From NCBI RefSeq assembly GCF_030815975.1, contig NZ_JAUSXL010000002.1, forward strand, positions 1,240,001 through 1,304,000: a DNA stretch of 64,000 nucleotides, in the 5' to 3' direction. Origin of the DNA: Variovorax paradoxus. Its GTDB lineage: Bacteria > Pseudomonadota > Gammaproteobacteria > Burkholderiales > Burkholderiaceae_C. A program made the position numbers and the translations under genes. Positions within the stretch are counted from its first letter, which is position 1. Every line of letters begins with the position of its first letter. Shown here in pieces: positions 12,456-48,742 of the stretch. Under the pieces are notes generated by a model that saw nothing but the letters and a program-made list of their open reading frames with translations, made no database searches and was not told the DNA's origin.

Positions 12456-12833
12456 TTACTTCTTGCTTGCCTTCTTGGCGGGTGCGGCCTTCTTGGCCGG
12501 CGCTGCCTTCTTGGCTGCAGGCTTGGCGGCTGCCTTGTCGGCCTTGCGCTTTGCAGCTTTGGGGTCGATGGCGGCTTTGAACGCTGCGCCCGGCACGAAC
12601 TTGGGCACCTTCTGCGCGGCGATCTTGATCTTTGCGCCGGCCTGGGGGTTGAAGCCGGTGCGCGCGGCGCGCGCCACTTGCTTGAAGGTGCCGAAGCCGA
12701 TGAGCTGCACGGGGTCGCCCTTCTTCACTGCGGCGACGATGGAGCCCGTGACGGTCTCCAGGATGCGGGCGGCTTCGGCCTTGCTGACGTTGTGGGCGGT
12801 GGCGATCTTTTCGACCAGTTCGATACGGTTCAC
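12456..12833 (-). CDS. HU-family DNA-binding protein with Lys/Ala-rich C-terminal tail
   Basis: A 125-residue nucleoid protein. Residues 1-90 are a normal HU/IHF fold: MNRIELVEKIA, the G-F-G-T-F turn, and the DNA-intercalating arm around R-T-G-F-N-P-Q. The last 35 residues are a low-complexity tail of repeated AAKPAAKK and AAPAKK units like the histone H1 C-terminus. Such tailed HU proteins are known in Comamonadaceae and related betaproteobacteria and should bind DNA more tightly or bridge it. The leader has AAAGGAAA about 5 bases before the ATG. The gene stands alone, with the terminator described at 12400 behind it. The DNA encoding the tail is internally repetitive, so length variation between strains is likely. 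Confidence 0.93.
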   Translation of the reverse strand: MNRIELVEKIATAHNVSKAEAARILETVTGSIVAAVKKGDPVQLIGFGTFKQVARAARTGFNPQAGAKIKIAAQKVPKFVPGAAFKAAIDPKAAKRKADKAAAKPAAKKAAPAKKAAPAKKASKK

Positions 12834-41014: not shown

Positions 41015-44000
41015 ATGGCAGGCAAAAACTCGCTCCATCCGATCCCGCATCCTGCCAAGAAGCCGTTCGTCGGCAACCTGCTGTCGATCGGGTCCGACTC
41101 CCCCGTGCTCGACATGTGGAAGATCGCGCAGGAGCTCGGCGGCATCTACTGGCTCGACATGCCGGGCATGCCGGTGATCGTGGTGTCGTCGCCCGCGCTG
41201 GTCGACGAGCTCTGCGAAGAGGCGCGCTTCGACAAGAGCACGCGCGGTGCGCTGCGGCGGCTTCGCGCCGCATCGCACGGGCTCTTCACTTCGGACACGC
41301 ACGAGGAAACCTGGTCGAAGCCGCACAACATCCTCTTGGCCAACTTCAGCCAGCGCGCGATGCAGGCCTACCACCCGATGATGCTGGACATCGCAGGCCA
41401 GCTGGTCACCAAGTGGGAGCGGCTGAACTTCGACGAAGAGGTGGACGTGGTGCGCGACATGACGGCGCTCACGCTCGACACCATCGGCCTGTGCGGCTTC
41501 GGCTACCGCTTCAATTCGTTCTACCGCGAGGGCTTCCATCCCTTCGTCGATGCGATGGTGCGCACGCTGGAGACGGTGCAGAACCGCCGGGGCCTGCCGC
41601 TCGAAGAGTTCATGCTCAAGAAGGAGCTCGCCCAGCAGCGCAAGGACATCCGCTTCATGCACAAGATGGTGGAAGACATCATCGAGGAGCGCCGCGCGGG
41701 CGGGGCCGACATTGCCACCAAGCCCGACCTGCTGAGCTACATGATCGCGGGCGTCGACAAGAAGAGCGGCGAGCAACTCAGCGACAAGATGATCCGCGAC
41801 GAGTGCATCGAATTCCTCATCGCGGGGCACGAGACCACCAGCGGCCTGCTGTCGTTCGCGATCTACTTTTTGCTGAAGAACCCCGAGGCGCTGGCCAAGG
41901 CGCAGGCCGAGGTCGACAGCGTGTTCGGCCCCGACACCTCGCAGAAGCCGACCTATGCGCAGGTCAACCGGCTGCAGTACGTGATGCAGGTGCTGAAAGA
42001 GGCGCTGCGCCTGTACCCGACCGCGCCCGCAATCTCTATGCGAGCCAAGGAAGACACGACCATCGGCGGCCAGTACACGATCAAGAAGAACAACATGGTC
42101 ATCATGCATGCGCTGGCGCTGCATCGCGACAAGGGCATCTGGGGCGAGGACGCCGACCAGTTCAACCCCGACCACTTCAGCCGCGAAGCCGAGCGCGAGC
42201 GGCCGGTCAATGCCTTCAAGCCCTTCGGCAACGGACAGCGCGCCTGCATCGGGCGCCAGTTCGCTCTGCAGGAAGCGGTGCTCACGCTGGGCATGATCCT
42301 GCAGCGCTTCGATCTCGTCGACCACACGGGCTACGAGCTCAAGATCAAGGAGGCGCTCACGATCAAGCCGGAAGGCCTGAAGATCAAGGCGCTGCTGCGC
42401 GACCCGGCCACGCGGCCGCGCGGCAACGGGGAAGCGGCAGCAGCCACGCCAGCGACCCCGGCGAAACCCGCCGCGCGCAAGCCGCAGGCGGCGCGCCACG
42501 GCACCTCGCTGCTGGTGCTGCAGGGCTCCAACCTCGGCACGGCCGAAGACCTGGCGCGGCAGCTGGCCGAGGCCGGCGAGCTGCGCGGCTTCTCGACGCA
42601 GGTGGCCTCGCTCGACGACTACGCCGAGCGGCTGCCGGCCAACGGCGCCGTCGCCATCGTCTGCGCCTCGTACAACGGCGTGGCGCCCGACAACGCCGCC
42701 GAGTTCCACCGCTGGCTCGACAAGGCCGACGATTCGCTCAATGGCGTGCGCTTCAGCGTGTTCGGCTGCGGCAACACCGACTGGGCCGCCACCTACCAGG
42801 CGGTGCCGCGGCGCATCGACGAGCGGCTCGACGCACTCGGCGCCACGCGCGTGCATCCGCGCGGCGAGGGCGATGCGCGCGAAGACATGGACGGCGCCTT
42901 CCAGGACTGGAGCGACGCGCTCTGGCCCGAGCTGGTGAAGGCCTTCGGCATCCAGTCCGGCGCCGATACGCCCGCCGAGGCCGAGCCGCTCTACACGCTC
43001 GAGGAACTGCCGCCGCCGCAGAAGAACGCGCTCGTCGATGCACTGGGCGCGGTGGCGCTGCGCGTGATCGAGAACCGCGAGCTGCAGAAGAACCCCGGCA
43101 GCTACAGCGAAGCGGGCCGCTCCACGCGCCACGTCGAGTTGATGCTGCCCGAAGGCGTGAACTACCGCGCCGGCGACCACCTGAGCGTGGTGCCGCGCAA
43201 CAGCCCGGCCCAGGTGGAGCGCGCCATGGCGCGCTTCGGGTTCGACCGCTCCGCGCATGTGCGGCTGCATGCCGATCCGGGCCGCAAGACGGCCCTGCCG
43301 GTCGACCAGGTGATGGCGGTCGACCGCCTGCTCGGCGACTATGTCGAGCTGCAGGACGTGGCCACGCGCAAGCAGATCGCCACGCTCGCGGCCTATACCG
43401 AGTGCCCGGCCACCAGGCCAAAACTCGCCGCACTCTCGGGCAGCGACGAAGCCTCGCAGGCAGCCTACAAGGCCGAGGTGCTGCACAGGCGCAAGTCATT
43501 GCTCGACCTGCTCGAGGAACACCGTGCCTGCCAGCTGCCGTTCGCGGTGTTCCTCGAAATGCTGTCGCCGCTCTCGCCGCGCTACTACTCGATCTCTTCG
43601 TCGCCGACGATGACGCCGGGGCGCTGCAGCGTCACCGTGGGCGTGGTGAGCGCGCCGGCGCTTTCGGGCAACGGCAGCTTCGAGGGCGTGTGCTCCAACT
43701 ACCTGGCGCGCGCCGAAGCGGGCGACACGGTGCACGGCGTGATCCGCGAAACCACGGCCGAGGGCTTTCGCCTGCCCGAGGATGCGCAGCGCCCGCTCGT
43801 CATGATCGGCCCCGGCACCGGCCTGGCGCCGTTCCGCGGCTTCCTGCAGGAGCGCGCGGCGCAGGCCGAGCGCAAGGAAGCGCTGGGCGATGCGATGCTG
43901 TTCTTCGGCTGCCGGCATCCCGAGCAGGATTTCATCTATGCCGAAGAGCTCGAGGCTTGGTCGCACCGCGGCCTGATGAAGCTGCACACGGCCTTCTCGC

Positions 44001-44239
44001 GCGCCGGCGAACGCAAGGTCTATGTGCAGGACCTGATCCGCGAGCAGGGCGCGGCCGTGTGGAAGCTGCTCGAAGCCGGCGCGGTGATCTACGTGTGCGG
44101 CGACGGTTCGCGCATGGAGCCCGACGTGCGGCGCACGCTGGCCGACCTGGCGCGAGAGCATGGCCACGACGGCGCGGCGTGGATGGACAGGATGATTGCC
44201 GAGCAGCGCTACGTGCTCGACGTCTGGGCCGGAGCCTGA
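41015..44239 (+). CDS. CYP102-type self-sufficient cytochrome P450 / NADPH reductase fusion
   Basis: A 1074-residue P450-BM3-like enzyme. The haem domain (1-475) has the I-helix AGHETTS with catalytic Thr 274, the ExxR in KEALRLYP and the haem ligand C411 in FGNGQRACIG. An Ala/Pro linker leads to a flavodoxin (FMN) domain from about 495 (LLVLQGSNLGTAEDLA), then FAD and NADPH domains with RYYSISSSP, GPGTGLAPFRGF and FFGCRHPEQDF; the end VWAGA keeps the Trp that stacks on FAD. BM3 hydroxylates fatty acids, but its carboxylate-anchoring Arg47 and Tyr51 correspond to M52 and V56 here, so the substrate is probably not anchored by a carboxylate in the same way. It stands alone, next to the storage-lipid cluster. 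AAAGG lies 11 bases before the ATG. Confidence 0.96.
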   Translation: MAGKNSLHPIPHPAKKPFVGNLLSIGSDSPVLDMWKIAQELGGIYWLDMPGMPVIVVSSPALVDELCEEARFDKSTRGALRRLRAASHGLFTSDTHEETWSKPHNILLANFSQRAMQAYHPMMLDIAGQLVTKWERLNFDEEVDVVRDMTALTLDTIGLCGFGYRFNSFYREGFHPFVDAMVRTLETVQNRRGLPLEEFMLKKELAQQRKDIRFMHKMVEDIIEERRAGGADIATKPDLLSYMIAGVDKKSGEQLSDKMIRDECIEFLIAGHETTSGLLSFAIYFLLKNPEALAKAQAEVDSVFGPDTSQKPTYAQVNRLQYVMQVLKEALRLYPTAPAISMRAKEDTTIGGQYTIKKNNMVIMHALALHRDKGIWGEDADQFNPDHFSREAERERPVNAFKPFGNGQRACIGRQFALQEAVLTLGMILQRFDLVDHTGYELKIKEALTIKPEGLKIKALLRDPATRPRGNGEAAAATPATPAKPAARKPQAARHGTSLLVLQGSNLGTAEDLARQLAEAGELRGFSTQVASLDDYAERLPANGAVAIVCASYNGVAPDNAAEFHRWLDKADDSLNGVRFSVFGCGNTDWAATYQAVPRRIDERLDALGATRVHPRGEGDAREDMDGAFQDWSDALWPELVKAFGIQSGADTPAEAEPLYTLEELPPPQKNALVDALGAVALRVIENRELQKNPGSYSEAGRSTRHVELMLPEGVNYRAGDHLSVVPRNSPAQVERAMARFGFDRSAHVRLHADPGRKTALPVDQVMAVDRLLGDYVELQDVATRKQIATLAAYTECPATRPKLAALSGSDEASQAAYKAEVLHRRKSLLDLLEEHRACQLPFAVFLEMLSPLSPRYYSISSSPTMTPGRCSVTVGVVSAPALSGNGSFEGVCSNYLARAEAGDTVHGVIRETTAEGFRLPEDAQRPLVMIGPGTGLAPFRGFLQERAAQAERKEALGDAMLFFGCRHPEQDFIYAEELEAWSHRGLMKLHTAFSRAGERKVYVQDLIREQGAAVWKLLEAGAVIYVCGDGSRMEPDVRRTLADLAREHGHDGAAWMDRMIAEQRYVLDVWAGA

Positions 44240-44251
44240 CCCCGCGGAAAC

Positions 44252-45027
44252 TCAGGCCTTGCGGCCCGGATCGGGATAGACCAGCGGCCCCAGCAGGCCG
44301 CGGTTGAACGGCTTCCAGCCGTTCTCCGGCTGCGCAAGCCGATCGGCCACCGCATAGAGCACCGCCGGATGCGCGCCGAGCCCCAGATGGCTCGCCACCA
44401 CCTCGATGTTTTCCGCCTGCGGCCCCGGCTTCTCGAGGCTGCAGCGCCACGCGACGACGCCGTCGGTGCGGCTGAAGATCGAGGTCGTGGGCACCGGCGG
44501 CGCGTGGGCTGCACGAACTTCATGCGGCGCGGGTCGTGCGAGCTCTGGCCGCTCACGCCCTCGTACACGCGCCATGCGTTGGTGGCGCGCGGGCTGCCGG
44601 AGAACGGGCTGCCCAGGGTGATGACGTTGCGCACCAGTTCCGGCTGCGCCGATGCCAGCAGCCGCGCATAGACGCCGCCCAGGCTCCAGCCGATCACGCT
44701 GACCTTCTGGCCGCTCTTTTCAGAGAGCGACTTCAGCAGCGCGAGCATGCCGTCCTCCACGCCTTCGCGCGGGCCGAAATTGCGGCCCAGGCCCCAGCCG
44801 TGCGCGTCGTAGCCGCGGCTGCACAGGTAGCGGCGCAGCACCAGCGTCGAGCCGTCGCCCGCCACGAGGCCAGGCAGCACGAGCACCGGATGGCCGTCGC
44901 CGCGCGGCGCGAGCTGCAGCAGCGGCCACATGGCGATGCCGGCGCCCGTTTCCCAGAGTGCGCGCGCCTCGGCCAGCAGCAGCAGGCCCGACGGCGGCGC
45001 GATGGGGTCTCGGGTGGCGGAGGTCAT
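44252..45027 (-). pseudogene. lipase-like alpha/beta hydrolase broken by a frameshift
   Basis: The protein begins at 45027 (MTSATRDPIAPPSG) and shows an intact first half with the nucleophile elbow GWSLGG near residue 115 and the block VLVLPGLVAGDGST. At about 44490-44514 the reading frame changes: the rest of the conserved sequence (VPTTSIFSRTDGVVAW with the acid residue, and VASHLGLGAHP with the catalytic His) is in the next frame and ends at 44252. Restoring the frame needs one extra base (or two fewer) in the GC-rich run. The two halves together make about 258 residues, a normal length. It is either a real inactivating mutation or a sequencing error. It belongs to the storage-lipid cluster and would be a candidate depolymerase or esterase. 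Confidence 0.85.
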
Positions 45028-45112
45028 GGGGCGGCTTTCCTTGCTGTTCTTTGTTCTATAGGACGAGCATGGCGAACCGAAGTTTCACCGTCCCGTCGGA
45101 CAACAGCGATCT

Positions 45113-45748
45113 TTATCCGAGGTATTTGCCCCGCAGGTAATCGAGGTAAGCCCTCGATTCGCTGGAAACATACGGGGAAATCAAGGTCAGCGTGTAGAAC
45201 GCCGCCAACCCCGGGTCGGCCTGCGCGAGCGCATCGCGCCCCGGCACCAGGCGTTCGAACGAGAGCCAGCAGGTGGTGGTGAAGACCATCTGCAAGGCCA
45301 GGATGCGGGCCTGCTCGGCGCTGGTTTCGATCACGCCCGAGGCCACCAGCCCTTCGCACAGCGCCTGGGCCGCCAGCAGGTTCTGTGCGGTGAGCGCCTG
45401 CGCGCGCTGGCCGAGCGCAGGGTATTCGCCGGCCAGGAAGGCCATGTCGCGATAGATGAACCGGTACTGGTCGATGGCTTCGAAGCGCAGGTGCAGCGCC
45501 AGCCAGAGGTCGTCGATGGCGGCGATCGAACCCGAGGAGCCGTCGAGCACTTCGAGCCGCTGCTCGAAACGCCGGAACAGCCATTCGACGATCAGCTGCT
45601 TGGCCTTGAAGTGATAGTGCAGGTTGCCCGGGCTCATGCCGAGCTCGGCCGCGATCTTGTGCGTGGACACGGCCGCCAGGCCTTGCGCGTTGAACAGCGC
45701 GAGGCTGGCCTGCAGGATGCGATCGCGCGTGGTGTTGGAACTGGCCAC
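45113..45748 (-). CDS. TetR-family regulator of the storage-lipid cluster
   Basis: A 211-residue TetR regulator. The helix-turn-helix domain is residues 8-55 (RDRILQASLALFNAQGLAAVSTHKIAAELGMSPGNLHYHFKAKQ). The SPGNLHYHFK variant is found in a group of TetR regulators near PHA and fatty-acid genes. The C-terminal all-helical domain has no known ligand. It lies between the phasin genes and the frameshifted hydrolase on one strand. The hydrolase leader contains a near-palindrome around TTCTATAGGA (45056-45065) that could be an operator. Confidence 0.9.
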   Translation of the reverse strand: MASSNTTRDRILQASLALFNAQGLAAVSTHKIAAELGMSPGNLHYHFKAKQLIVEWLFRRFEQRLEVLDGSSGSIAAIDDLWLALHLRFEAIDQYRFIYRDMAFLAGEYPALGQRAQALTAQNLLAAQALCEGLVASGVIETSAEQARILALQMVFTTTCWLSFERLVPGRDALAQADPGLAAFYTLTLISPYVSSESRAYLDYLRGKYLG

Positions 45749-45795
45749 AACCGGCTGATGCTGCTGCGTGCGTCGGTGCTTCGCTGGGCCGAGGC

Positions 45796-46326
45796 TCAGC
45801 GCTTGCCGCTGCCGCGCGGGCCGGCGTTCCTGGGCTCGAGTTGCGCGAGGCGTTCGCGCAGCCGGATCACTTCTTCGCGCAGTGCCTGCACTTCTTCCGC
45901 GCTGGGCATGCCCAGGCGCTGCAGGGCGGTGGCCACGCGCTGGTCGAACACGTCCTCGAACTTGCGCAGGCCGAAGCTGTCGAGGCTCGGAAAGCCACGG
46001 GGAACCGCGGCCTTGGCCGCCGCCGGATCGAACTTGCCCTGGCCGATGCCCAGCAGGCCCTCGATCACATTGGCCTGGCGCTTGGCGACATCGTCGCGCA
46101 CGTTGCCGAGCACCTTGAGGCCCGCGCGCAGCAGGCCCTCGGCACCGCCGGCCTTTGCGCTCGGCCCGGCGTCCGGTGCGGCAGCAGCCGTTCTTTTTTT
46201 CTTCGATGCCGCAGACCTCTTCCCGGCTGCGGGCGCCTTCCTGGCCGCAGGAGTTTTCCTTGCAGGCTTCGCAGGCGCCGCCCTCTTCTTCTTGGAATCG
46301 TCCGTCGGATCGAGGCGGGTCGCCAT
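45796..46326 (-). CDS. PhaI/PhaF-like granule-associated phasin with basic N-terminal tail
   Basis: A 176-residue polyhydroxyalkanoate granule-associated protein. Residues 1-55 are Lys/Ala rich (KKKRAAPAKPARKTPAARK) and histone-like. Residues 60-130 are the amphipathic phasin region (GLLRAGLKVLGNVRDDVAKRQA). Residues 130-165 form a short coiled coil with the heptads FDQRVATALQRLGMPSAEEV and ALREEVIRLRERLAQLE. In Pseudomonas PhaF the phasin part binds granules and the basic tail binds DNA, so that granules are shared between daughter cells; here the order is reversed, with the tail at the front. It is 17 bp behind the next phasin gene and clearly co-transcribed with it. Confidence 0.85.
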   Translation of the reverse strand: MATRLDPTDDSKKKRAAPAKPARKTPAARKAPAAGKRSAASKKKRTAAAAPDAGPSAKAGGAEGLLRAGLKVLGNVRDDVAKRQANVIEGLLGIGQGKFDPAAAKAAVPRGFPSLDSFGLRKFEDVFDQRVATALQRLGMPSAEEVQALREEVIRLRERLAQLEPRNAGPRGSGKR

Positions 46327-46343
46327 GCGTTGTTGCTCCAGGG

Positions 46344-46907
46344 TCAGGCCGCCTTGCGGGCGGCGGTGCTGCGGCGAACCGGCTTCTTGGCGGCGGCGGC
46401 CTTGGCCTTCACGCTGCGCACGGGCTTGTTCGCTTCTTCGGTGCCGCTCACGCGCACTTCGATCTGTTTCGCACCGGCAGCGACCTTGTCGGCGATCTGC
46501 ACCGACACGTTGGCGATCGGCTGGTTCAGCGCGTTCAGCGTCTTGACCACCGAGCTGACGACGGGCGATTCGACGCGCGCCACGCGGCCGGCCACGGTTT
46601 CGATGCCGCTTGCGGTGCCGGCAGCCACGCGGTCCATCACCGAGACGATGCGGCCGGTATCGATGTCCAGGCGGTTGGCCAGGAAGCCGTTGATCTTTTC
46701 CTGCGCGCCGATCAGGTTGGCCTTGACCTGCTCGCTCACCAGCGGAATCTGGCGGCTGCCCAGGAATTCGCTGTAGCGCGAAGCAGCGCCGCCGAGCAGG
46801 CGATGAACGCCGGCGCGGTAGGCGCCCACCAGCGTCTTGCCGGCGTCGTTGTACTGGCCGATGACGTGGATGGCAGCGGAAGAGAAGGAAGCTTGCGTGG
46901 TGCTCAT
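46344..46907 (-). CDS. phasin-like granule protein with Lys/Ala-rich C-terminal tail
   Basis: A 187-residue protein. Residues 1-150 are amphipathic helices with few charged clusters (SSAAIHVIGQYNDAGKTLVGAYRAGV and TGRIVSVMDRVAAGTASGIETVAGRVA), in the style of phasins. The last 35 residues are basic: VRSVKAKAAAAKKPVRRSTAARKAA. It probably coats polyhydroxyalkanoate or neutral-lipid granules. It sits between the WS/DGAT gene (140 bp upstream) and the PhaI-like gene (17 bp downstream) on the same strand. I do not assign it to a named phasin family. Confidence 0.75.
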   Translation of the reverse strand: MSTTQASFSSAAIHVIGQYNDAGKTLVGAYRAGVHRLLGGAASRYSEFLGSRQIPLVSEQVKANLIGAQEKINGFLANRLDIDTGRIVSVMDRVAAGTASGIETVAGRVARVESPVVSSVVKTLNALNQPIANVSVQIADKVAAGAKQIEVRVSGTEEANKPVRSVKAKAAAAKKPVRRSTAARKAA

Positions 46908-47047
46908 GTGGATGTCCTGGAAGTTGATCGTCGGGTCGCGGGATTCGCGATGGAGTGATCTTCTTCCAGAGTGCCTAGGCCTGGAAAGCTAGAACGGTCG
47001 GAAAACTAGTCCAACTGCCCCAATTTTCGCGGCGGAGGGTCCGCCGA

Positions 47048-48742
47048 TCATGCCGCAGCGGCCACCCTGGCGCGTTTGGCGGGCGCGGCGGGCTTGCGGG
47101 GCGCGGCCTTGGGAGCGGCTGCCTTGGCCGGCGCTTTCCTCACGGCGGTCTTGGCGGCCGGTGCCTTGGCCGCGGGAGCTTTCGCTGCCGGCGGCTTCTT
47201 TGCGGCCGCCTTTTTCGCAACGGGTTCTGCGGCAGGTTTAGCGGCGGGCTTGGGCGCCGCCTTCACGGCGGGCGCCGGCTCGGGAGCAGCCGCAGCCTTG
47301 GCAGGCGCCGCGCCCGCCGCCGCGGGATGCGTCTGCGTCAGGCCCAGCAGCAGCTGGTGCTCGGCCAGCATGTAGTCGCCGATCTCGGTGATGTCGGGCA
47401 CCGCGCGGCGGCAGGCGATGAGGCCGTAGTCCATGCGGCCGTTGTAGCTCTGCACCGTGACGTTGAGGGCAGTGCCGTGGCTCGCGATCGACACCGGGTA
47501 GTAGCTGGTGACCAGCGCGCCCGCAAAGTACATCGGGAACGGCGCGCCCGCCACGTTGGAGATGGCCACGTTGGCGGCCGGCGGCAGCAGGTTCACCAGG
47601 CCCGAGCGCCCCACCATCGAGGCGATACCCGACACCAGCCAGGGCGCGGCAAAGGTCGGGAAGTCGTCGAGGATCACCGCCTTGAAGCGGTTCATGGTCG
47701 ACTTCGAGCTGGTCGACGATGCGTTGATCGCCTTCAGCCGCTGCACCGGGTCGGTGATGTCGGTGGCCAGGCTCACGAGGATCATGCTGGCCTGGTTGTT
47801 GGAGGTCTCGTCGCCAGCTTCGCGCAGGCTCACGGGCACGCCGGCCACCAGCGGCTTGGCGGGAAGCTCGTTGTTGTCGGCCAGGTAGTGGCGCAGCGCG
47901 CCGGCCACGGTGGCCATCACCACGTCGTTGAGCGACACGCCGAAATGCTTGGCGATGTGCTTGGTCTCGGCCAGCGAGATGGTGCGGCCCGCAAAGGTGC
48001 GCTGGTTGGTGATCGACACGTTGAGCGAGGTGCGCGGCGCAAACAGGTTGAACTTTTTCGGCGCGGTGGCGGTGTTCTTCTCGGCCGCCTTCTCGTCGGG
48101 CTTGGCCAGGCCGCCGAGCGCCCGCGCGATGGCCGGTGCCATCTTGAAGAGCTTGACGTACTGCTGCGCCGTGTTGCGCAGCGCCGCGGTCGCGAGCTCG
48201 GCCATGCCCAGCTGGTAGCCGCTGCTGCGCGGACGCGCGCGCGGCGGCTTCACCACACGGCCCGCGGGCTCGAGGTCGAAAATGGCCTTGCCGAGCGCCA
48301 CGCCGGCCTGCCCGTCGATGCCCGCATGGTGCACCTTGGTGTAGAGCGCCACCTGGCCGCTCTTCAGGCCGTCGATGATGAAGAACTCCCACATCGGACG
48401 GCTGCGGTCGAGCAAGGTGGAATGCAGCCGCGCCACGTACTGCTGCAGCTGCCGGTTGGTGCCGGGCCGGGGCAGCGTGATGTGGCGCACGTGGTAGTCG
48501 AGGTCGATGTCCTCGTCGGCCACCCACACCGGGTTGGTCATGTCGAAGGGCATCAGCGCGAGCTTGCGCGTGAACACGTCGGCCAGGTGAATGCGGCTGG
48601 CCATGAACTGCTTGGCGTCCTCGTAGAAATCGCCCTTGTAGCCCTGGGGCAGGTCGAGCACGTTGAGCGAGCCCACGTGCATCGGCATCTCGGGGGTTTC
48701 CAGGTGCAGGAAGGTGGCATCAAGACCGCTCAGGTGTTTCAT
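47048..48742 (-). CDS. wax ester synthase / diacylglycerol acyltransferase with histone-like tail
   Basis: A 564-residue WS/DGAT enzyme that esterifies acyl-CoA to fatty alcohols or diacylglycerol, making wax esters or triacylglycerol. The active-site motif HHAGIDG (HHxxxDG) is at residues 138-144. The start MKHLSGLDATFLHLE, the PLWEF-like block MWEFFIIDGL, the ND motif SLNDVVMATVAGALR and the NVAG motif are all typical. The catalytic part ends near residue 460; the remaining 100 residues are Ala/Lys/Pro repeats (PAAKPAAEP, KAPAAK, APKAAPRK) not found in Acinetobacter or Mycobacterium enzymes. The tail is histone-H1-like. It heads the cluster with two phasins. Codons of the tail are GC-rich but continue the same frame without interruption. 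Confidence 0.93.
   Translation of the reverse strand: MKHLSGLDATFLHLETPEMPMHVGSLNVLDLPQGYKGDFYEDAKQFMASRIHLADVFTRKLALMPFDMTNPVWVADEDIDLDYHVRHITLPRPGTNRQLQQYVARLHSTLLDRSRPMWEFFIIDGLKSGQVALYTKVHHAGIDGQAGVALGKAIFDLEPAGRVVKPPRARPRSSGYQLGMAELATAALRNTAQQYVKLFKMAPAIARALGGLAKPDEKAAEKNTATAPKKFNLFAPRTSLNVSITNQRTFAGRTISLAETKHIAKHFGVSLNDVVMATVAGALRHYLADNNELPAKPLVAGVPVSLREAGDETSNNQASMILVSLATDITDPVQRLKAINASSTSSKSTMNRFKAVILDDFPTFAAPWLVSGIASMVGRSGLVNLLPPAANVAISNVAGAPFPMYFAGALVTSYYPVSIASHGTALNVTVQSYNGRMDYGLIACRRAVPDITEIGDYMLAEHQLLLGLTQTHPAAAGAAPAKAAAAPEPAPAVKAAPKPAAKPAAEPVAKKAAAKKPPAAKAPAAKAPAAKTAVRKAPAKAAAPKAAPRKPAAPAKRARVAAAA

Follow-up and report, generated by a model that had tools for sequence, protein, structure and literature searches.

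PhaF, a protein with AAKP-like repeats, is described as a DNA tether of polyhydroxyalkanoate (PHA) granules (PMC5658603), PhaM as a protein that links the granule to the nucleoid and binds the synthase as well (PMC3556143, PMC13052382), and PhaH and AlgP are listed as further tethers (PMC13052382). For neutral-lipid droplets, the Lys-rich C-terminus of MLDS from Rhodococcus jostii RHA1 is reported to bind DNA in gel shifts, an activity abolished by exchanging Lys for Glu, and when MLDS is missing, about 20% of the DNA is found at droplets instead of about 45% (PMC5504291). Here, we describe a five-gene cluster of Variovorax paradoxus in which a wax ester synthase/diacylglycerol acyltransferase (WS/DGAT) itself has a histone-like tail. 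The cluster lies in a stretch of 64,000 nucleotides (hereafter "the window"; C2:1240001-1304000, contig NZ_JAUSXL010000002.1) of a 6.09 Mb genome in two contigs. Our data support the view that the tails encoded in this cluster are unusual for the genome and stand on proteins expected on a lipid granule; by analogy, this suggests that the enzyme producing the fat droplets may also tie them to the chromosome. A comparison with the tails of PhaF and PhaM had already been drawn in an original prediction made from the sequence of the window. It is apt, and MLDS, which was not named there, provides a closer precedent with its Lys-rich end binding DNA on neutral-lipid droplets (PMC5504291).

The WS/DGAT scores above the curated cut-offs of TIGR02946 (454 versus 310 bits), PF03007 (236 versus 23.6) and PF06974 (98.7 versus 20.7) and carries the active-site motif HHxxxDG at residues 138-144. 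The genome contains no other PF03007 match. Judging from its family, the enzyme probably makes triacylglycerol or wax ester. Alignments with the solved WS/DGATs 7nxg and 6chj end at its residues 468 and 462, respectively, at most 11 residues from the ends of their chains, and the following residues 469-564 form the tail, 81% of which is Ala, Lys and Pro. The roughly 100-residue Lys/Ala/Pro tail that had been predicted is thus confirmed at 96 residues and a net charge of +18. The GC content of third codon positions is 0.94 in the core of the gene and 0.76 in the part encoding the tail. How rare such segments are was assessed among 353 gene calls with products no shorter than 100 residues, drawn from the window plus a further 400 kb from this genome, a non-random control of 20 stretches of 20 kb with 4 of the 20 picked around PHA genes. 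A 60-residue stretch with a net charge of at least +10 and at least 50% K+A+P (hereafter the K/A/P rule) occurs in only 4 of them, which encode HU, the WS/DGAT, the PF05597 protein of the cluster and RpoD. Charge alone is less rare, with a net charge of at least +10 in the last 60 residues of 15 of these proteins and at least +12 in 4. The HU protein is the tailed one anticipated elsewhere in the window (12456-12833 on the minus strand; PF00216), while RpoD (L134:10104-12458) has a Lys/Ala/Pro-rich N-terminal extension ahead of its region 1.1.

The tail is kept in all of the 120 closest homologues listed (the nearest of 6264 matches and all near relatives), with lengths of 84-112 residues, net charges of +15 to +24 and a Lys content of 14.6-19.6% in 107 distinct versions. 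For those printed with a core identity of 92.7-95.3%, the likeness of the tails is only 57.8-66.2%. Because charge, length and Lys content are held while the tail sequence drifts faster than the core, the pattern is what selection on make-up rather than on sequence would give. The Lys content is held despite the GC-rich gene, which we count in favor of a tethering function as proposed below.

Beyond these relatives, we called a tail basic if it had at least 20 residues, a net charge of at least +5 and at least 0.15 charges per residue, rules that were fixed after the first tails had been seen; a stricter category, the strongly basic C-terminus, was computed on the last 45 residues. A comparison of genes comes from 80 named loci, the best 80 of at least 590 by similarity to the tailed query, among which tails may be over-represented (the search patterns lay in the core). 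In these loci, 35 of 85 WS/DGAT genes have a strongly basic C-terminus versus 2 of 825 other genes, the latter taken from a simple gene caller and possibly including false open reading frames (ORFs). Fisher's exact test gave P = 2.6e-35 for a looser count of 35/95 that still included 10 opposite-strand ORFs within WS/DGAT genes. The view that tails are particular to this cluster is not supported: a strongly tailed WS/DGAT is present in 34 of the named loci, of which only one has another gene with a C-terminus of this type, and WS/DGATs from other genera often bear basic tails. Among near-full proteins of the 80 loci, 50 of 89 have a basic tail (Burkholderiales 35/55, Rhodocyclales 5/6, Nitrosomonadales 5/5, Kordiimonadales 2/2, Lysobacterales 1/1, and 2/9 for the rest apart from the Hyphomicrobiales discussed below). 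Loci of the genus (31/32, own genome included) and of the family (22/29) show the trait as well, these being the best-scoring ones and not an even draw.

Even draws gave lower frequencies. A WS/DGAT is present in 42 of 300 Burkholderiales genomes, and a basic tail is found in 16 of these 42 genomes and in 22 of 72 near-full complete proteins (of 79 rows, the remainder being split, partial or unfetched). A draw of 398 genomes across the phylum yielded basic tails in 9 of 60 proteins and in 9 of 38 further WS/DGAT genomes, a count that omits four genomes of the order set and two weak matches and includes a family (f85) outside the class of Variovorax. Within the order sample, 18 of 27 proteins with motif endings other than ADG or GDG (motif-less proteins included) have a basic tail, compared to 4 of 45 in the class with these endings (Fisher's P = 4e-7). 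Because one WS/DGAT class has the tail and the other class of the same order mostly does not, the tail does not reflect a drift of C-termini across the whole lineage. In a tree of 217 WS/DGAT cores, 79 of them with a basic tail, 34 changes are needed (26 of them forced by well-supported branches) versus 64 for shuffled labels. The tail thus clusters on the tree yet has been gained or lost many times, and it is a recurrent trait of a WS/DGAT branch that is not special to this genome.

Three other explanations of the tail were rejected. A trait of this genome alone is incompatible with tailed WS/DGATs in other genomes and genera, and a frame artefact with the same make-up in 120 of the 120 homologues listed. 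Chance or GC drift of C-termini is discounted by the conservation among homologues, the 353-gene count, the class split and the 80-locus count.

Additional WS/DGATs were seen near the first one in several genomes. In some Variovorax, a second WS/DGAT lies immediately beyond the hydrolase gene on the opposite strand (L036:12712-14427, L040:12526-14253, and genome G874 at L259); these copies have a short and weakly basic tail (29-33 residues, net charge +3 to +5). Seven named loci (L088, L093, L098, L105, L106, L110 and L115) have a second WS/DGAT-like protein without HHxxxDG near the first, and six of these seven carry a basic tail of their own. In a metagenome-assembled genome, an iron-containing alcohol dehydrogenase adjoining the WS/DGAT (L076:4531-5832) has a similar basic C-terminus; since fatty alcohol is a substrate for wax esters, this tail may perhaps be no coincidence.

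The gene downstream of the WS/DGAT had been predicted to encode a phasin with a basic C-terminal tail. A basic end is present, but it is short (about residues 164-187, i.e., some 24 residues), Lys/Arg-rich and unstructured, with a net charge of +9 in the last 30 residues, and it fails the K/A/P rule. The protein lies outside the known phasin families (PF09361, PF05597 and others): searches of Pfam at E values up to 1 with this protein and 32 members of its family gave no match below an E of 0.0095 and no phasin family among the matches, and the protein of the window matches no family in NCBIfam. Its best AlphaFold2 model (pLDDT 72.5, pTM 0.58) shows helices at residues 5-51, 59-111 and 115-154. 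The name phasin is therefore best understood as a label by context, drawn from the predicted helical structure, the gene context and one database name (P0183), and we speak of a phasin-like protein.

The phasin-like family occurs in 30 of 299 genomes of the bacterial family (19 of 141 genera), and all 30 are among the 166 genomes with a WS/DGAT (hypergeometric P = 6e-9); by genus, all 19 fall within 85 of 141 (P = 2.7e-5). Since the genomes are related, these P values are too small, and the genus count points in the same direction. When the WS/DGAT genomes are split by best E value into groups of 111 and 55 (like the presence per genome, matched by eye from tables), 29 of the 30 fall among the 111. 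PhaC is present in 296 of the same 299 genomes. Because all 30 genomes have a WS/DGAT while PhaC is near-universal, the phasin-like family goes with WS/DGAT and thus neutral lipid, not with PhaC and polyhydroxybutyrate (PHB). The phasin-like gene lies 0.3 kb (G954) and 3 kb (G885) from a WS/DGAT in two of these genomes. In the survey of WS/DGAT homologues, as called for with the original prediction, 8 of the 80 loci contain all three of the phasin-like, PF05597 and TetR genes; these loci are from Variovorax and Aquabacterium terrae. In two other loci (L041 and L057), PF09361 phasins lie within about 4 kb of a WS/DGAT, and in an earlier metagenome study a betaproteobacterial WS/DGAT was noted to have a putative phasin nearby (PMC10351704). 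That the cluster serves PHB granules is unlikely, given that the sole PhaC match and two PF09361 matches lie elsewhere in the genome and that the phasin-like family tracks WS/DGAT.

The next protein of the cluster was predicted to be PhaI-like with a basic N-terminal tail, and this tail was indeed found over about 60 residues (about residues 10-60 in the alignment). A low-confidence model (pLDDT 59) is unstructured there, with values below 50 in most of residues 5-59. The protein matches PF05597 with 38 bits against a cut-off of 28.8, covering only positions 82-124 of the 126 in the profile and not its N-terminal granule-binding part, and stays below the cut-off of TIGR01837 (35.9 versus 94.7 bits). 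In Variovorax, its basic part stands at the N-terminus, whereas Aquabacterium terrae, from the only further genus seen, has it at the C-terminus (the start codon of that gene is uncertain); this arrangement looks as if charge, not position, mattered. The same genome also encodes a full-length PF05597 protein (L123:10214-10717) that, unlike the copy in the cluster, has its basic end at the C-terminus.

The lipase-like alpha/beta-hydrolase changes frame near 44503, and its two pieces match consecutive parts of a single 278-residue protein of a relative (L036). The identity is 88.6% between residues 1-175 and residues 22-196 of this protein, and 90% between the second piece and its residues 196-277. 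In the four closest Variovorax fetched, with 94-98% identity across the first piece, the hydrolase is in one frame, and the break is either a recent loss of the lipase-like partner in this strain or an assembly error. Across genomes, the hydrolase is the most constant partner of WS/DGAT, with a match in 57 of the 80 named loci (56 with at least 100 bits) and in none of the 20 control stretches of 20 kb from the own genome. Among 61 Variovorax genomes, a WS/DGAT above the cut-off is found in 48, and a strong hydrolase match (E of 3e-47 or better) in 46 of these 48 versus 1 of the 13 others (Fisher's P = 7e-10).

The cluster (Table 1) is transcribed in the order WS/DGAT, phasin-like protein, PF05597 protein, TetR regulator and hydrolase, and it ends at 44252 with the second hydrolase piece. 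As predicted, all five genes are on one strand, although the "phasin" has no match to a phasin family and the hydrolase is not a single open frame. The gaps along the cluster, calculated from the coordinates, are 140, 17, 47 and 85 bases, and one transcript is therefore possible. A scan for promoters and terminators returned no promoter-like site and 8 terminator-like sites, 7 of them on the opposite strand. Named homologues of the three cluster proteins that were searched are nearly all from Variovorax. A fused cytochrome P450-reductase of 1074 aa (41015-44239 on the plus strand), which from its domain order we take to be CYP102-like, converges on the cluster, and the end of a similar-looking protein lies on the same side of the cluster in L036.

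Table 1. Features of the WS/DGAT cluster (positions refer to the window)
Feature	Position	Strand	Basis
WS/DGAT, 564 aa, motif HHAGIDG	47048..48742	-	TIGR02946, PF03007, PF06974
Histone-like C-terminal tail of WS/DGAT, 96 codons + stop, net +18, 16% K, 47% A, 18% P	47048..47338	-	composition; homologues
Phasin-like protein, 187 aa, no named family, three predicted long helices and disordered basic end (residues 164-187)	46344..46907	-	AlphaFold2; 139 homologues
PhaI/PhaF-related protein, 176 aa, basic N-terminus and C-terminal helical part of PF05597	45796..46326	-	PF05597; alignment; low-confidence model
TetR-family regulator, 211 aa	45113..45748	-	PF00440, PF13972
Alpha/beta-hydrolase (lipase-like), first piece, residues 1-175, ahead of the frame change	44503..45027	-	match to relative in L036
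Alpha/beta-hydrolase, second piece, other frame, ending at stop codon	44252..44503	-	match to same relative

From the observed gene content, the tails and their conservation, and the association of WS/DGAT with both the hydrolase and the phasin-like family, we infer a scheme that extends to droplet location, DNA binding, partition, TetR control and the substrate of the hydrolase. The cluster would make and coat neutral-lipid droplets of triacylglycerol and/or wax ester. The WS/DGAT would make the lipid, and its basic, presumably disordered tail would, as the precedents suggest, bind chromosomal DNA without sequence preference, with droplets starting and staying on the nucleoid and being shared out at division. 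The helical phasin-like protein would coat the droplet, as its model and context suggest, and the PhaI/PhaF-related protein might act as a second tether with its basic part at the end opposite to that of PhaF and its C-terminal helices joining the coat or the enzyme. The TetR regulator would control the gene set, while the alpha/beta-hydrolase partner would degrade or edit the stored ester. Of the basic, low-complexity, H1-like segment on a granule protein that marks a tether, the segment is present and the granule location is presumed. Taken as a whole, the proposal that the cluster builds and coats neutral-lipid droplets and that the WS/DGAT tail tethers them to the nucleoid seems to us evenly poised between right and wrong. 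Its generalization is somewhat more tentative: throughout the Betaproteobacteria, and separately in certain further Proteobacteria, an H1-like tail might make the neutral-lipid synthase the nucleoid tether, with droplets arising on DNA because their enzyme would be kept there. In Variovorax and kin, the phasin-like family, seen only with WS/DGAT in the 299 genomes, might assist.

Several observations weigh against tethering by the tail. None of the 11 Hyphomicrobiales proteins of the 80 named loci has a basic tail, and genomes with a WS/DGAT in which no basic-tailed copy was found make up 26 of 42 in the Burkholderiales draw and 29 of 38 in the phylum draw. To this are added the frequent gains or losses on the tree of 217 cores and the absence from the tail of an exact PAKKA, the motif named for MLDS. 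Concerning the putative droplet coat, Foldseek found no match of the phasin-like model in the PDB below an E of 1.2, and in three genomes (G264, G856 and G860) the WS/DGATs listed on the same contig are all more than 100 kb away from the phasin-like gene. Both solved WS/DGATs lack such a tail, and because they do, the tail is not needed for catalysis.

The main rival holds that the tails are lipid anchors, with Lys-rich stretches fixing both enzyme and coat proteins to acidic phospholipids, be it in the inner membrane or in the droplet monolayer, and gathering small droplets. We consider this unlikely. It draws on the report that mycobacterial HBHA without its methylated Lys-rich C-terminal repeats neither binds phosphatidylinositol lipids nor restores lipid-inclusion formation (PMC6176652), and it would suit an enzyme obliged to work at the membrane or droplet surface. 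However, binding by HBHA required methylated lysines (PMC6176652), the solved WS/DGATs do without such a tail, and the content of large hydrophobic residues in the close-homologue tails (2-12%) would place them nearer to H1-like DNA-binding tails than to amphipathic membrane helices.

Alternatively, the tail could bind polyanions generally (RNA, ribosomes or polyphosphate) or form condensates, and lipid synthesis would be gathered there and not on the chromosome, which strikes us as rather improbable. Such an affinity would fit a tail whose make-up but not sequence is kept, and AlgP bears a tail of this kind. AlgP is listed as an organelle- and nucleoid-binding protein of polyphosphate granules (PMC13052382), but the nearest tested droplet case, MLDS, binds DNA (PMC5504291). 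The variable length of the tail among the listed homologues and its coming and going on the tree would also agree with a low-complexity extension that serves no function and has spread through slippage of repeats; this we judge very improbable, as charge and Lys content are narrowly held across the 107 distinct tails and the other genes of the same loci are nearly free of such ends (2 of 825).

Granule tethers with an H1-like tail are known as a kind; what appears to be new is the tail on the neutral-lipid synthase itself and a phasin-like family tied to WS/DGAT. In the open-licence literature searched, we found no report of either among the matches listed and none on Variovorax with triacylglycerol and wax ester. 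The main text of the one paper seen on betaproteobacterial WS/DGAT loci does not contain the word lysine (PMC10351704). The placement of bacterial neutral-lipid droplets and their sharing at division seem little studied, and a 2025 review of organelle positioning covers PHB and polyphosphate granules without the terms "lipid droplet" or "triacylglycerol" (PMC13052382). Being a simple removable part, the synthase tail can be tested across many species, and several Burkholderiales genomes offer a natural control by pairing a tailed WS/DGAT with one of the mostly tail-less class. In addition, the cluster provides candidate droplet-coat proteins for bacteria having both PhaC and WS/DGAT.

Compared to described systems, the cluster most resembles MLDS and its regulator MLDSR, which share with it neutral-lipid droplets, a Lys-rich H1-like C-terminus and a regulator (here, the TetR gene); unlike the WS/DGAT, MLDS is not a synthase but a protein of the droplet that has a targeting domain, and DNA binding has been demonstrated for its tail while it is presumed for ours (PMC5504291). 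HBHA and TadA of actinobacteria likewise combine a Lys-rich C-terminus (HBHA) with a lipid-inclusion protein but belong to a coiled-coil, phosphoinositide-binding adhesin family and are not enzymes (PMC6176652). The structures 7nxg and 6chj share the catalytic and C-terminal domains of our WS/DGAT over almost their full length, but their chains of 463 and 455 residues have no tail. With PhaF and the PF05597 family, the PhaI/PhaF-related protein of the cluster has the C-terminal part of PF05597 in common, linked to a basic Ala/Lys/Pro part, though the basic part is C-terminal in PhaF and N-terminal here, where the profile is only partially covered. PhaM of Ralstonia eutropha comes close to the role proposed here as a granule-nucleoid tether linked to a synthase (PMC3556143, PMC13052382). 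PhaM, however, is a separate protein that binds PhaC, whereas in the Variovorax cluster the basic part is fused to the synthase itself and the expected product is neutral lipid.

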